Source: a virus. Taken from it: DNA of 39,516 bases. Below, piece after piece: positions 13,452 through 28,218 of the stretch. Location: positions 1-39,516 of IMG/VR virus record IMGVR_UViG_3300019487_000056; one strand, given 5' to 3'. Numbering within the stretch: the first letter of the stretch is position 1; each line of letters starts with the position of its first letter. The translations under genes were made by a program, and so were the position numbers. The notes below the pieces were generated by a model. It was not told the DNA's origin. It did no database searches and worked only from the letters and a program-made list of their open reading frames with translations.

Positions 13452-13713
13452 GGGCGCGAAGAGCATCCTCTGGATCTTGGAAGCGGAGTCCGCGGAAGAA
13501 GGCGTCGAAGCAGCCCGTCTCGGGGTGGAAGACGGCTTCCGCGGGCTCCCCAAGGCCGGAAAAGCGCTTGGCGCAGTACTCGGGGAAAGAGTCCTTGAGC
13601 GGAGGGTATGGGTAGAATTGAAAGCGGGTGCCATCAGGCGCCGGAATGACGAAGACCTCGAAGAGGTTGGCGAGGTCGACGTGGGCGATGAAGTTGACGG
13701 ATGGCTTCAGCAT
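13438..13713 (-). CDS. Reverse-strand small gene inside the tail operon
   Basis: This is the only credible reverse-strand gene: 91 residues from an ATG at 13713, or 95 from a TTG at 13725. The ATG has a weak GGATGG upstream. The product is rich in Phe, Pro and Asp with balanced composition (FIAHVDLANLFEVFVIPAPD, DSFPEYCAKRF, GCFDAFFRGLRF) and strongly GC-biased third positions, whereas the + strand here gives only Arg/Gly/Glu-rich shadow sequence and leaves a 314-bp gap between genes. A TTGACT lies on the reverse strand at 13743-13748, but no good -10 is found at the right spacing. The function is unknown; it is a moron-like insertion candidate. Confidence 0.62.
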   Translation of the reverse strand: MLKPSVNFIAHVDLANLFEVFVIPAPDGTRFQFYPYPPLKDSFPEYCAKRFSGLGEPAEAVFHPETGCFDAFFRGLRFQDPEDALRALTAR

Positions 13714-13765
13714 GAGGCCATCCAATACAGGATAGACAGGTCAGTCAAGAAGAAAGGGTCACGCC

Positions 13766-14239
13766 ATGCCGGAAACCACTCAGGCCGTCTCCGCTCCGCC
13801 CACCCAGGCCCCGCCGCCCGCCCCTCCCCAGAAGAGGCCGTACACGCTCCGCTTCGAGCCGGTCGGGGAGTTCAACGAGACCGAACTCTTCACGAAGGGA
13901 ACGTTGCGCGCGAAGCTCTGGATCAGCGACAAGATCGTCGCGAGCTTCAAGTCGCTGACGGGCGAGGAGGTCGACCGCATCAACGAGGCCGTCAAGGTGA
14001 CTCCGCAGACGACGACCGCGCAGTACAACACCGAGATCACCTACCACAACCTCGCTCACTCGATCGAGTCCGTCAACGGCTCCGTGATGCCGTCAGACTT
14101 CGCCGAGCGCCTGAAGAAGTTCCGGTCGATGGCATCGGCTGTCATCGGGCGTCTGTCGCTGGCGTACCTCGAGTTCAACGACCGGATCGACGAGCTCTTC
14201 GTCGGGAAGGGGGTGGCAGAGCTCACAAAAAAATCCTGA
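13766..14239 (+). CDS. Tail assembly chaperone, short form
   Basis: This encodes 157 residues ending at TGA 14237-14239; an AAAGGG precedes the ATG. A Pro/Ala/Gln-rich start (residues 1-30) is followed by a beta-containing domain and a helical C-terminal region. Position between tube proteins and tape measure, together with the frameshift signal at its end, identifies it as the upstream partner of a chaperone pair like lambda gpG/gpGT. It would coat the tape measure during tail assembly and be absent from mature virions, as known for this family. The sequence itself is not recognisable beyond context. Confidence 0.72.
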   Translation: MPETTQAVSAPPTQAPPPAPPQKRPYTLRFEPVGEFNETELFTKGTLRAKLWISDKIVASFKSLTGEEVDRINEAVKVTPQTTTAQYNTEITYHNLAHSIESVNGSVMPSDFAERLKKFRSMASAVIGRLSLAYLEFNDRIDELFVGKGVAELTKKS

Positions 14240-14586
14240 GCTCCCCTGAAGCGAACTTCAAGGCATCTCTGGCGCTCAGGGGAGTCCGGGTCGAGAAGCT
14301 CAGCCCGATCGAGCGGGCGGTGTTCATGGTCAAGTTCGAGCAGGAGCGTCTCGCAGCTCTCCACGCGCTTACCGCGCAGGTATTCGCAGGAAGCGACCAG
14401 AAGAAAGCGTCCGAGTTCCTCATGAAGTTCATGGACGACACCTTCCCGGAGATGGCGGGGAAGAAGGAGCTGACGATCGAACAGAAAGCCAAGGAGCTCG
14501 CGGAGTTCTCGAAGAAGACGATCGCCCTCGTCCCCATGAAGGGGCACGAGGACTGGTTCAAGCTGGACATCCAGGAGAAGAAGTAA
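13766..14586 (+). CDS. Tail assembly chaperone fusion product via -1 frameshift
   Basis: Ribosomes slipping back one base at A AAA AAA (14227-14233) avoid the TGA at 14237 and continue to TAA at 14584-14586, giving about 273 residues: 156 from frame 0 and 117 from frame -1. The second part (KKILSSPEANFKASLALRG to LDIQEKK) is helical, has normal codon usage and no start codon of its own near its beginning, so it is probably made only by frameshift. It ends exactly where the tape measure ATG begins, which is the usual chaperone-tape measure order in long-tailed phages. Confidence 0.82.
14227..14284 (+). promoter_or_regulatory. Programmed -1 ribosomal frameshift site
   Basis: The slippery heptamer A AAA AAA (14227-14233) lies in the correct phase (aca aaa aaa). 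A 7-base spacer containing the frame-0 TGA follows. Then CTCCCCTGA (14241-14249) pairs perfectly with TCAGGGGAG (14276-14284), with three more G-C pairs inside after one bulged A. Slippery site, spacer and stem all match the canonical layout for tail chaperone frameshifting. Confidence 0.85.
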
Positions 14587-23052: not shown

Positions 23053-24806
23053 TGGTCCTGCCGCTTCCGGATGCCCTGTCTCAATTCTCTCAGGCGGCTC
23101 TCCAGAACATCCAAGCTCTCGATTCGATCCAGCAGTCCGTAGGGAGCGTGCAGACGTCCGTCCAGAACAACATCACGAATGCCGCGACGGCTGCCATCAC
23201 GGGGCCGGGCGAGCTCTTCGAGGCCGTGCCGGACTTCGCGGCCGAGTTCAACCAGGACTTCATCAACGCGATCTCCATCCCGCCCGTCCTGCAGAACTCG
23301 ATCCAACGGGACGCCTTCGGGGACGTCTTCGGGACGGGGCTGACGTCGGGCTCCGCGGTCGACGGATTCTTGGGCGCGAATGTGCGTCTCGAGGACATCA
23401 TCCCGGCGCAGCAGCTCTTCCAGATCGTCCAGAATCTCGGCGGGGACGCGCTCTACGTGGACCCGCTCCAAGCCTACGCGCACGTCAACCAAGCCTCGAA
23501 TGACCTGACGAACCTCTGCAAGGAGGCCGAGGAGATCATCACTTCCATCCAGACAGACGTGACGAGCCTGCTGTCGCTCCAGTCGACCTTGAACTACGCT
23601 CAGATCGACGCGGCGACCAAGCAGTATTATCAGGCTGCGACCGAGCAGCAGAAATCCGTGATCGACGCCTACAAGGTCGTGCGGGACACGTTCTCGGTCC
23701 GTGGACGGTACGACCCAGCCGAAGTTTCGGAACTCTGTGCGCTCATTGACGGGATGTCGAACACGGTCATGTTCGGGACCTCTAAGTTCGTCGAGTTTGA
23801 CCGGCTCAGGAAAACAATCGACGGACGCCTTCGTCGGCTTCAGGAGATCGCCCGCGAGATCCCCAGCATCGCCGACAGCGTCAAGGGGTTCGTCCCGGCG
23901 TATATCGCCAGCGCGACCTTCGGGAAGCTCTTCAACGCGATCCAGAGCCGCGTTTTGAGCCAGAGCGGGATCAACCTGAACCGGATCCTTCGCGATCTTG
24001 AGGCGCTTTCCTCGCTCTCGGCAGACGCCCGCTCGAAGCTCCTGGCCAACTTCACGATGGCGGGCTCGCTCCAGGCAATCAAGGCGTTCATCTGCAATAT
24101 CCAGCCCGCGACAGATGTCGTGGACGTGACGGACCCCGTGATCGGCCCGCTGAAGACAGGGTATGACACCTACACCGCGGGTCTGGCCGCCAACGATACG
24201 ACGCCCCTCTTCGCGGCACTCGAGACGCAGATCCCGACGTTCTCCTCGACCTCCCAGACGTGTTTCACCAGGAACTCCGGCGCCGAGCTCGCATCGGAAG
24301 CAAGCGCGCTCGGAGCGATCCTGACGCCGCTCGCGCTTTTCCTGACGAACACCTGCGGATTCGCGGACGCGTTTCGGGGTCTCTTCGCGACGACGACGGC
24401 CGCTCTGCCCGAGCGCGTGACCGGGGCGCTTGACCTCTTCCAGGACACCGGCCTCGACGCGGCGCGCGAGGTTGGAATGGGGCAGAGCTTCGATCAGATC
24501 ACGGAGCTCTCGCTCTCGGAATCCACGAAGCCTGGCGAGCTCGCCAACGCCATTCGCGAGCGCGTCGCCCAGCTTCCAGACGGGAACGAGAAAGACCAGC
24601 TCACGCTGGTGTATGCGAACGTCTACGCCAGGCACCGGGCGACGGTGCTCAGCATGGATTTCCAGCAGCGCGAGGACGTCGCGACGTTCCTCGCTCTTTC
24701 GGAGGACGAGGAAAACAGGCGCCTCGTGAACGAGGCGACGAAGACGTTCTCGGGTCTCGACGAGGACGAGTTCGATCCAATCACGACGGAGACGTTCCTG
24801 GCATGA
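23052..24806 (+). CDS. Unknown large helical tail/baseplate protein
   Basis: This encodes 584 residues from an ATG overlapping the sigma factor stop (TGATG). A Gln/Asn/Ser-rich helical start (SQAALQNIQALDSIQQSVGS) is followed by long helices and hydrophobic sections (about 150-250 and 330-470), with Cys near 156, 232, 351 and 406, and an acidic C-terminal tail. The last codons overlap the next gene (ATGA at 24803-24806). No family recognised; position between hub and gp25-like gene makes a baseplate or hub-associated role likely. Confidence 0.6.
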   Translation: MVLPLPDALSQFSQAALQNIQALDSIQQSVGSVQTSVQNNITNAATAAITGPGELFEAVPDFAAEFNQDFINAISIPPVLQNSIQRDAFGDVFGTGLTSGSAVDGFLGANVRLEDIIPAQQLFQIVQNLGGDALYVDPLQAYAHVNQASNDLTNLCKEAEEIITSIQTDVTSLLSLQSTLNYAQIDAATKQYYQAATEQQKSVIDAYKVVRDTFSVRGRYDPAEVSELCALIDGMSNTVMFGTSKFVEFDRLRKTIDGRLRRLQEIAREIPSIADSVKGFVPAYIASATFGKLFNAIQSRVLSQSGINLNRILRDLEALSSLSADARSKLLANFTMAGSLQAIKAFICNIQPATDVVDVTDPVIGPLKTGYDTYTAGLAANDTTPLFAALETQIPTFSSTSQTCFTRNSGAELASEASALGAILTPLALFLTNTCGFADAFRGLFATTTAALPERVTGALDLFQDTGLDAAREVGMGQSFDQITELSLSESTKPGELANAIRERVAQLPDGNEKDQLTLVYANVYARHRATVLSMDFQQREDVATFLALSEDEENRRLVNEATKTFSGLDEDEFDPITTETFLA

Positions 24807-25267
24807 GCAAAGACCTGTCGATCATCAGGTACACGGAACTCCCGCAGCAGGGACCGTTCCGGCAGCAACACGTCGACTTTACGCTGGGAAAACGGTCGAA
24901 GCTGGTTTCCGGGATCCTCAAGCTCGTCCAGATGGTCATGAAGATCATGCTGACGACGCCGGGGACAGACCACTTCTCGCCGGAGCTTGGGACAGTGATC
25001 CCGTCGCTCCTCAAGAGGGGCGTATCCCAGTCCGGCGTGCAGCTCATCAAGATGGACGTCATGGCGTCGCTTCAGGACTTGGAGCGGCAGATTCAGGACA
25101 TCCAGTCCGCCGAGGTCATTCCCGACGACGAGCGCCTTCAGGACATCATCACGCGGCGCGTGGAGTACCTCCCCGCTTCCGCTGAATGGATCATCGAGAT
25201 CTCGGTTTCGTCGTTGGCTGGAGAAAGAGTGTCCTTCGATATAACGCCATATCTCAAAGGCAAATAG
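24803..25267 (+). CDS. gp25-like baseplate wedge protein
   Basis: This encodes 154 residues. Near residues 50-75 it contains the pattern TTPGTDHFSPELGTVIPSLL, resembling the conserved turn of gp25/GpW-type proteins, where glycine, proline and a small-residue-rich loop precede a hydrophobic helix. The N-terminal helix, central helices with an acidic linker, and C-terminal beta strands (AEWIIEISVSSLAGERVSFD) fit this small family. The protein connects baseplate wedges to the sheath base in known phages. It overlaps the preceding gene and ends one base before the ATG of the endonuclease fusion. Confidence 0.68.
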   Translation: MSKDLSIIRYTELPQQGPFRQQHVDFTLGKRSKLVSGILKLVQMVMKIMLTTPGTDHFSPELGTVIPSLLKRGVSQSGVQLIKMDVMASLQDLERQIQDIQSAEVIPDDERLQDIITRRVEYLPASAEWIIEISVSSLAGERVSFDITPYLKGK

Positions 25268-25939
25268 ATGCCGCGTCTAGTCAGCGATCGAATCCCAATT
25301 CTCTCTAAATCGGAGAGGACGGACCTCTCGCGTCTCGCGAGACGTCAGCGCGACCAAGCTGTGCGCGCACGTATCGTTCTGTGCGCGGCCGCCGGCGTAA
25401 GGTTGCGCGCAATCGCAAGGCGATTCTCCCTGTCTCGGCTGACTGTCCGGCTGTGGCTCGATCGGTTCCGCGCCAAGCGTACCAGAGGGCTTGAGGCCCG
25501 AAAGCCTGGGCGCGTAATGGGGTCTACTTGCACAAGGTGCGGTGGACCAAGGGATGCGGATTACGCGCCTACTTGCAAGGGATGCAACAGCGAGAGGATG
25601 ATTTCGTATTCTCGCTTCCAGAAAAGAAGGCGATACGTTCGGAGGTACGGGCGGTACTGGCACGCTTCGGGCAAAGCGCGGGCCGCAAACCTGAAGCATA
25701 AGTACGGCTTAACCGAGGTCGCCTATAATGCGAGGTTGAAGGCGCAGGGTGGAAAGTGCGCCATTTGTCGTGCAGAACCCCCGAATGGGGTCAGGCTGTT
25801 CGTCGATCATAACCACAACGCCGGTAACGTGCGTGGGCTGCTGTGCAGCGGGTGCAACTGCGCGCTCGCTTTTATGCGGGATGACCCAAGAAGGCTTCGC
25901 AAGGCCATCAAGTACCTCAAGAAAAACGGAGACCGGTAA
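25268..25939 (+). CDS. IS630-type HTH domain fused to endonuclease VII-like HNH nuclease
   Basis: This encodes 223 residues between two baseplate genes. Residues about 12-82 match the N-terminal HTH of IS630-type transposases (SKSERTDLSRLARR, RARIVLCAAAGVRLRAIARR, LSRLTVRLWLDRF, RGLEARKPGR). No transposase catalytic domain follows. Instead comes a zinc knuckle (C88-x2-C91, C103-x2-C106), a basic linker and an endonuclease VII-like domain (about 140-215) with C164-x2-C167, D180-H181-N182-H183 and C193-x2-C196-N197. An internal ATG at 25517 marks the likely ancestral start of the nuclease. Codons are less GC-biased than neighbours. It may be a free-standing homing endonuclease or resolve branched DNA; the HTH is likely a DNA-targeting addition. 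Confidence 0.82.
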   Translation: MPRLVSDRIPILSKSERTDLSRLARRQRDQAVRARIVLCAAAGVRLRAIARRFSLSRLTVRLWLDRFRAKRTRGLEARKPGRVMGSTCTRCGGPRDADYAPTCKGCNSERMISYSRFQKRRRYVRRYGRYWHASGKARAANLKHKYGLTEVAYNARLKAQGGKCAICRAEPPNGVRLFVDHNHNAGNVRGLLCSGCNCALAFMRDDPRRLRKAIKYLKKNGDR

Positions 25940-28218
25940 TGACCGCCGAGTTTACAGACAATCTGACGGATTTTCTGGAAGCGAAGCTCAAGGAGTTCAA
26001 CCCGGACATTGCGGTCGGCGAGGGGACGGCTATCCGCGACCTTTTCATCAAGCCGTTCACGGTCGTCTTCCAGCCCATCGTGGACGAAATTCTGAGCATT
26101 CGGGCGAACCTCTCGCTTCAGGGCGCCGAGGATCTCGATCCAGACGATCTCGACCGGCTGGCCGCGAACTTCTTCATCACGCGGAAGACCGGCGCGAAGG
26201 CGACCGGCACGGTCCGTCTCTTCTTCAGCGAACCCGTCGACGAATTCGTCCCCCAGGGGACGATCTTCATCGCGTCCAACGGCGTGCGCTTCCTGTCGAC
26301 CGTGGACGTCACGATCACGTCTTCTGGGCTCCAGCTCAACACGTTCGGGGATCTTTTCTTCCAGGACGTTCCTGCGGAGGCGGAGCTCGCCGGCTCGAAT
26401 GGCAACGTGCCCTCGGACCTCGTGACAGACCTTCTCGTCGCGAGCGACACGATCGTCGACATCACAAACCCCGCGGCGTTCACCGGCGGGATCGACGAGG
26501 AGACGAACGCACAGCTCGTCGAACGCCTGACGATCGCCATCACGTTCAGGAACCTGATCAACAAGCCCGGCGCGAAGCTCATCCTCCTGGAGAACTTCCC
26601 GAGACTCCTGGACGTACTGCCGATCGGGTTCGGGGACAAGCACACGATCAAGGCCGAGGCGGTCGGGATCGGTGATGGCGTCGACACGATGTTCCAGCTC
26701 TCCGAAACGGAGGACGTGATTCCTGAGTCGATCGACGTCTTCCTGGCGGTTCCGGATGAGCTCGTGCTCACGGGGCCTGGCATCACGCCAGGATTCAAGC
26801 TCCTGGATTTTTTCCCGTACACGACGGCAAGCCTCTTCCTGTCGGCCGGAACCTCCTTCATTGGGGGCACGCCCCTTGTTGCCGGTACGGACTACGTAGC
26901 TGGCCAGACGGTCTCGATCCTGGATGAGCTTGTGGCGACGGGCCCGGTCGTGGCTGGCCCTCTTCCGGCGGTGGATTTCTTCCCCGTCGCGAGCTCCCCC
27001 GCCATCGAAGTGAGGGCCGGGGCGGCCTTCGCCGGTGGCGTGCTTCTTACGCTCACGACCCATTACACGATCAGCCTACCAACGGGCGTCATCACGCTCA
27101 CGGCGGCGGGAGCAACGCTCGTGAACGCCCAGGCTCCTCCGAACGTCCATGCCAGATACACCGCCACGAGTCCGAGTTCGGCGGCGTTTGCGCTGCTTCC
27201 GTCTGGGGCGACGATCGTGAACGCCGCCGTCCCGCCGGAACTCCACGCGAAGTACAGCACGGACGCGCTCGACGCGAGTCTCGTGAGCGGAGATTTCTTC
27301 GGAGTCGTGACGTTCACCCTGGCTCCGGGCGCGGGCACGGTCATCACGGCGGATTTCACCTACTACCTCATGCGCCGGGACCGGGTGAGCGGCACGGGGC
27401 TCGTGCTCGGGGACGACTCGTTCGGAACGGTCACGAATGTCCACATCGGCGGCAAGGTCGACTTTTACCTCAAGTTCTCAGGCCTCGAGGAGAAGGAAGT
27501 CCGGATCAACGCGCTCGAGGACGAGAATTTTCTCTTCGAGCAGACGACGAGCGACCCGGCCCCGACGTCGATCCAGCAGTACGTGAGCGGCCTCCCGCTG
27601 CCCGTGATCGTGATCAAGAACGTCGAGAAAGTCGATCCTGGGACCAACCTGCCGAGCGGGGTCTTCCTCTCGACGCCGGCGGATTACAACCTCGTCATCA
27701 TGCCCAACAAGCTGAACGTCAACATGTCGATGCGGCAGAAGCTCAGGCTCGACATCGTGAACCCGGCATTCCTCGGGACGGACGTCCTCTTCCGGTACTT
27801 CACCCATCAGGACTTCGCCGCAGTCCAGGCCTTCATCGACGACCCGACGAACCGTATCGTGACGGCGGACCTTCTGGCTCGCGCGCCCATGCCGGTTTTC
27901 ATCGACATGGACATCCGGTATTCCCGGCAGACGACCGGGCCGGACGCGGCGACGATCCAGCAGGCCGTGATCAACTTCGTCAACGGCCTCAAGCTCTCCG
28001 GGTGCCTATCGATGTTCGACCTCACGAAGGCACTCACGGATGCTGGCGTGGAGTTCGCGGTCCTCCCCATCACGATCAACGCAGAGCGGATCAATCTGGA
28101 TTTCTCCGTCGTGACCATCTCGAGCACCAACAAGATCGTAGTGCCGCCGAACTTCCAGTTCATCGCGCGCGAGATCAACGTGGCCGAGGTGGAGCTCGAC
28201 GAATGCGACACGATCTAA
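25939..28218 (+). CDS. Baseplate J-like / gp6-like wedge protein with beta insertions
   Basis: This encodes 759 residues, its ATG overlapping the upstream stop (TAATG). The N-terminus (FEAKL-like helix, then GEGTAIRDLFIKPFTVVFQP) and the segment GGIDEETNAQLVERL (about 182-196) match the signature region of baseplate J-type proteins. Between about residues 230 and 480 a set of beta modules is inserted, including THYTISLPTGVITLTAAG and SGDFFGVVTFTLAPGAGTVI. The C-terminal part contains mixed strands (FIDMDIRYSRQTTGPDAATI). The family forms the wedge ring of contractile baseplates. Inserted modules resemble those in sheath and fibre proteins. Confidence 0.75.
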   Translation: MTAEFTDNLTDFLEAKLKEFNPDIAVGEGTAIRDLFIKPFTVVFQPIVDEILSIRANLSLQGAEDLDPDDLDRLAANFFITRKTGAKATGTVRLFFSEPVDEFVPQGTIFIASNGVRFLSTVDVTITSSGLQLNTFGDLFFQDVPAEAELAGSNGNVPSDLVTDLLVASDTIVDITNPAAFTGGIDEETNAQLVERLTIAITFRNLINKPGAKLILLENFPRLLDVLPIGFGDKHTIKAEAVGIGDGVDTMFQLSETEDVIPESIDVFLAVPDELVLTGPGITPGFKLLDFFPYTTASLFLSAGTSFIGGTPLVAGTDYVAGQTVSILDELVATGPVVAGPLPAVDFFPVASSPAIEVRAGAAFAGGVLLTLTTHYTISLPTGVITLTAAGATLVNAQAPPNVHARYTATSPSSAAFALLPSGATIVNAAVPPELHAKYSTDALDASLVSGDFFGVVTFTLAPGAGTVITADFTYYLMRRDRVSGTGLVLGDDSFGTVTNVHIGGKVDFYLKFSGLEEKEVRINALEDENFLFEQTTSDPAPTSIQQYVSGLPLPVIVIKNVEKVDPGTNLPSGVFLSTPADYNLVIMPNKLNVNMSMRQKLRLDIVNPAFLGTDVLFRYFTHQDFAAVQAFIDDPTNRIVTADLLARAPMPVFIDMDIRYSRQTTGPDAATIQQAVINFVNGLKLSGCLSMFDLTKALTDAGVEFAVLPITINAERINLDFSVVTISSTNKIVVPPNFQFIAREINVAEVELDECDTI

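Follow-up and report, generated by a model that had tools for sequence, protein, structure and literature searches.

An uncultured virus carries, at the junction of two baseplate genes, a gene for a two-part protein in which the first HTH of an IS630-family transposase is joined to an EndoVII-type nuclease. The two-part protein had been noticed from the DNA itself, and this observation is confirmed: the domain make-up, the intact active site, the fusion point, the foreign composition and the empty sites in relatives are all seen directly. Judged from its sequence, there is probably at the gp25/J junction a free-standing EndoVII-type homing endonuclease gene whose targeting has been changed by the fused transposase HTH. 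We infer cleavage, a target, homing and a working HTH from these features.

Position of the Gene

The window, i.e., the whole stretch of DNA that was analysed, has a length of 39,516 nt and comprises positions 1 to 39,516 of the uncultured virus record IMGVR_UViG_3300019487_000056. Its + strand carries head, sheath and baseplate genes, and the chimeric gene is fitted between two of the latter (Table 1). Its start abuts the stop of the gp25-like gene (TAG followed directly by ATG), and its stop codon overlaps with the J-like start (TAATG at 25937-25941). The gp25-like identity of the upstream neighbour is weak by Pfam and PHROG; its position is the same in relatives, and in BLAST it matches the gene just upstream of J with E values from about 1e-10 to 3e-5 (loci L099, L100, L102, L105, L106, L111 and L112).

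Table 1. Coordinates of the chimeric gene, its parts and neighbours in the window, and of three phage genes used for comparison
Feature	Position	Strand	Evidence or remark
Chimeric gene, IS630-type HTH and EndoVII-type nuclease	25268..25939	+	223 aa; domain matches, outlier GC3
Upstream neighbour, gp25-like baseplate wedge gene	24803..25267	+	PHROG baseplate families, E 7e-4 to 1e-3
Downstream neighbour, baseplate J-like gene	25939..28218	+	Baseplate_J, E 2.1e-20; PHROG baseplate wedge subunit, E 2.7e-29
N-terminal module, first HTH of IS630-family transposase with AT-hook-like end	25268..25516	+	IS630 alignment, AF2
HTH_28 match, residues 33-81	25364..25510	+	E 8.1e-8, passes cut-off
KPGR, residues 79-82	25502..25513	+	Position of AT-hook-like RPGR after HTH1 in IS630 proteins
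Nuclease module, complete free-standing EndoVII protein from Met84	25517..25936	+	Alignments with relatives; PDB profile matches
Zinc knuckle C88-C91-C103-C106	25529..25585	+	Invariant in 25 sequences
Endonuclease_7 domain, residues 141-219	25688..25924	+	E 2.9e-22
Mycobacterium phage Patience gp7	L237:4712-5242		Annotated hypothetical only
Konstantine open frame	L238:847-1374		Annotated gp6 (L238:1126-1377) covers 3' part only
Dori gp2	L239:249-812		HTH-like segment, zinc knuckle and EndoVII

A perfect 14-nt inverted repeat pairs positions 25612-25625, in the nuclease half, with positions 25971-25984, at the start of the J gene. It is the sole perfect one of at least 14 nt within 1 kb in the window, and when the surrounding 1 kb is shuffled by mononucleotides, 2 of 500 shuffles contain a perfect inverted repeat of at least 14 nt; the repeat may be due to chance, because a rough count gives about 0.2 expected over the whole window.

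The Nuclease Half

Residues 141-219 are matched by several EndoVII PHROGs, with E values down to 1.7e-28, as well as by Endonuclease_7. When the nuclease half is aligned with 24 free-standing relatives, the catalytic residues D180, H181, H183, R189 and N197 are found to be present, and the zinc residues C88, C91, C103, C106, C164, C167, C193 and C196 are all kept. This half has the D, H, H, R and N residues together with the CX2-4C (C164/C167) and CX2C (C193/C196) pairs by which DHHRN nucleases are recognised.

The EndoVII motif is C-terminal, with Endonuclease_7 at residues 141-219 of 223. Such a placement is typical of most of the endonuclease clade, including the proven homing enzyme F-CphI, whereas resolvases of EndoVII type have the motif at the N-terminus (PMC6083498); the layout of T4 EndoVII-type resolvases, an N-terminal EndoVII followed by a C-terminal dimer/junction domain, is absent here. 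The placement argues against a non-mobile nuclease of recombination or packaging, i.e., a Holliday-junction resolvase or a terminase-helper EndoVII with an HTH. The fact that genes with an HTH-like segment and EndoVII adjoin terminase genes in the phages Patience, Konstantine and Dori would fit such a function, but the present gene has a foreign composition and lies at a baseplate junction where eight related loci do not have it, and we consider a role of this kind very improbable.

The Transposase-Derived Half and the Fusion Point

The original prediction of an IS630-type HTH without the catalytic domain of the transposase agrees with three profile matches. In addition to HTH_28, HTH_23 matches residues 31-74 (E 1.8e-6, passing its cut-off), and the IS630 transposase model NF033545 matches residues 33-82 (E 1.2e-6), with a score under the full-length cut-off because the N-terminus alone is present. 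In an alignment with 11 IS630 N-termini, residues 1-83 are collinear from the natural start; the IS630 N-termini that align in this way come from plasmids and genomes, and identities are 36-51%. A Gordonia IS630 transposase is 47% identical to the HTH half, and ORFs of 350-393 aa in bacterial genomes reach 51% over residues 11-83. The residues E16, G43, A50, W63, R66 and G74, invariant across the aligned IS630 N-termini, are kept. The second HTH and the DDE catalytic domain of the transposase are absent from the 223-aa protein, and since residues 84-223 are EndoVII and there is no DDE match, the protein is no transposase.

Profile comparison or structure prediction for the two halves had been proposed together with the prediction. 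For the HTH half, the profile has its best PDB sequence matches in Pax/Prd paired domains, namely in their first subdomains (E 4e-4 to 1e-3), which is expected for the IS630/Tc1 type. Foldseek with a small HTH model gives no significant E-value, and its best probability, 0.92, goes to Pax paired domains. With the profile of the nuclease half, the match to Hpy99I (E 4e-18) extends along the entire half, and that to T4 EndoVII (E 9e-12) is confined to the catalytic domain. AF2 predicts four helices in the HTH domain (residues 14-24, 29-41, 46-52 and 57-70; mean pLDDT 81), and the full model has two confident domains with a break at residues 81-83, where pLDDT is below 50.

The fusion lies directly after KPGR, and Met84 corresponds to the internal ATG at 25517. 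The natural start of the free-standing EndoVII relatives (M..C.KCG) aligns with Met84, as expected if this ATG is the ancestral nuclease start that it had been taken to be. A target-site TA duplication of IS630 type around the HTH half was considered and rejected: there is a TA at both edges, but no terminal repeat.

The coincidence of Met84 with a natural EndoVII start, together with the fact that the 223-aa protein stands alone in the collections searched, would be in line with the HTH half being a passenger, i.e., a transposase fragment fused by chance, with function in residues 84-223 and a translation start possibly at 25517. Such a passenger is unlikely, in view of the intact core residues and predicted fold of the HTH, of an in-frame stretch of 83 codons whose start follows the gp25 stop without a gap, with AAAGG before 25268 and no clear ribosome-binding site before 25517, and of the same deviant GC3 in both halves.

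If the HTH half is functional, one may ask what it reads. In ISY100, a Tc1/mariner/IS630 element, constructs that have HTH1 and the AT hook but no second HTH (Tnp1-57 to 1-77) show weak binding to the transposon end (PMC2170065). From the HTH half alone, weak specificity is expected, because one of the two transposase HTHs is present. The retained unit, HTH1 and AT hook, is the one that binds transposon ends in ISY100, and its core is well preserved. It could therefore still read IS630-type terminal inverted repeats, in which case the nuclease would cut IS630 elements, or a satellite with such ends, in a host or co-infecting genome, and the gene would be kept for its benefit to the phage, not for homing. 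There is a precedent in Odn of phage ICP1, a homing-type nuclease with a RepA_N domain that derives from Odn's target (PMC8263062, PMC10448857), and the tight packing of the present gene in its operon is also compatible with a weapon of this sort. However, one weak HTH would confer little specificity, IS630 elements are not, unlike PLE, known as harmful to phages, and the site is a late structural operon and no early counter-defence region. Moreover, no cognate element was found: the best protein identity is about 50%, the DNA of the HTH half is without match in plasmids, and the DNA-binding domain does not closely resemble one from an identified target element. We regard an Odn-like weapon as coherent in itself but unlikely, and it is decidedly doubtful that the end-binding unit of a transposon has been made the guide of a nuclease cutting IS630-type ends in host or rival genomes. 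If this were true, the Odn principle would have been invented a second time, independently, with another nuclease and another source of the targeting domain; and should the HTH still recognise the ends of transposons, a route to anti-transposon nucleases may be open to phages.

Insertion Site and Foreign Composition

A scan with an alignment of the J protein brought in 14 related viral loci. The earlier claim that the gene splits a gp25-like/J-like pair is borne out by eight related loci without insert (L099, which is Vibrio phage D181, L100, L101, L102, L105, L106, L111 and L112), in which the two genes abut with spacings from -1 to +12 nt; L100 and L101 seem to represent a single virus, which leaves seven distinct loci. 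Here the comparison with related phages that had been suggested does turn up the baseplate junction without the gene, in distant phages throughout: identity of J to these relatives is 24-36%, and since they are distant, the empty site is evidence from synteny and no isogenic allele. The eight loci display, at this distance, the sporadic insertion seen with DHHRN homing endonucleases.

The gene is less GC-biased than its neighbours, as noted before. Its GC3 is 0.668, compared with a mean of 0.858 (sd 0.054, minimum 0.777) in the 26 other genes of the window, and none of 9,417 segments of 223 codons from these genes is as low. GC3 is low in both halves (0.651 and 0.679), each of which lies beneath the minimum of the other genes. 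Since both halves are equally low, they may already have been joined when the gene arrived.

Elsewhere in the window, a frame of 369 aa at 13477-14586 has an odd GC content by codon position (0.76/0.45/0.62) relative to the other genes and may be a false frame.

Search for Related Fusions

No second IS630-HTH/EndoVII protein spanning both halves occurs in 50,697 phage records, and the HTH half alone has no match among phages at E 1. Seemingly longer phage matches in FuzzBuster, Clown and RidgeCB turned out to be spurious extensions or unrelated N-termini, and Gaia gp140, considered as a candidate, has no HTH. Scans of viral and genome contigs with the single protein gave no close relatives of the whole protein, and an HTH-pattern scan of the viral contigs gave none. 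When about 160 EndoVII ORFs of viral and genome contigs were read singly, the IS630 HTH was absent; at the N-terminus they are extended by zinc ribbons or by segments that are AP2- or NUMOD3-like by eye.

A whole-protein search of about 1,390 genomes from four phyla gave no IS630-HTH/EndoVII fusion: residues 1-84 match transposase-like ORFs, the nuclease matches EndoVII ORFs, and the candidates with a match reaching residues 21-78 have, on reading, no HTH. Among the clear matches of an Endonuclease_7 survey of 396 Pseudomonadota genomes there is no HTH fusion.

These collections also contain EndoVII ORFs on chromosomes that are about 223-228 aa long and carry the zinc knuckle as two repeats (L115-L193, many from Micromonosporaceae); Micromonospora, Actinoplanes and Catellatospora commonly have them. 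EndoVII genes often stand in close tandem pairs (L027 and L030, at 791-1192 and 1986-2426; G006:C6, G448:C222, G493:C52).

Foldseek led to mycobacteriophage Patience gp7 and with it to a small family in Patience, Konstantine and Dori, whose members begin with an HTH-like segment, followed by a CxxC knuckle and then EndoVII, and whose genes adjoin those for terminase. A marginal Pfam HTH match is found in Konstantine only (HTH_58, E 0.001, under the cut-off). Because of this family, the broad arrangement of HTH and EndoVII has precedent. The pairing had been presented as not known to be a described class, and within the collections searched this stands for IS630-HTH with EndoVII; for HTH with EndoVII in general it goes too far, and the new part is the IS630-derived unit. 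Recruitment of DNA-binding domains by phage homing nucleases is a published theme. HTH-bearing or chimeric homing nucleases such as I-TevI and Odn are known.

Probable Homing with a Borrowed HTH

The gene had been described as a homing-type mobile gene, and its anatomy and synteny fit the DHHRN/EndoVII homing family. We prefer this interpretation because EndoVII-type homing endonucleases are established and recruited DNA-binding domains are documented in phage homing nucleases. To see how such a gene could work, consider an EndoVII (DHHRN) homing gene that has entered where the stop of the gp25-like gene meets the start of the J-like gene. HTH1 and the AT-hook-like segment from an IS630 transposase would be fused to it at the nuclease's own start codon, so that DNA recognition would be extended. 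Its translation would be coupled to that of gp25, and the protein would bind DNA through the HTH together with the zinc-knuckle/EndoVII surface. The gene-free allele of a co-infecting relative would then be cut and the gene copied in by break repair, with the HTH supplying or shifting the choice of target. The gene, in which the two parts meet cleanly at the start codon of the nuclease, would thereby be a concrete case of a homing-type nuclease that takes its DNA recognition from a transposase, and would illustrate how such genes may gain new targets.

Comparison with Known Systems

F-CphI of cyanophage S-PM2 (PMC6083498) is likewise encoded by a free-standing phage gene and has a C-terminal D-H-H-R-N motif with two CxxC pairs, but it acts with the psbA intron, whereas the present gene sits at a baseplate junction and has an IS630-type HTH in front. 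T7-like phages (e.g., Klebsiella phage IME305) also have free-standing EndoVII genes that lie between virion (capsid-protein) genes, with identities that reach 57% over residues 136-220; they begin at the equivalent of Met84 and have no HTH. The Patience gp7, Konstantine and Dori gp2 proteins share the order of N-terminal HTH-like segment, CxxC knuckle and EndoVII, but their HTH is of another type and not IS630-derived, and they are shorter and adjoin terminase genes. ICP1 Odn (PMC8263062) resembles the present protein in that a homing-type nuclease is combined with a DNA-binding domain from another mobile element, and differs in having a T5orf172 nuclease, a RepA_N domain and a proven target, the PLE origin. 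IS630-family transposases, including ISY100 (PMC2170065), have in their HTH1 and AT-hook-like segment the counterpart of residues 1-83, followed by a second HTH and a DDE domain of their own, which are here replaced by another nuclease.
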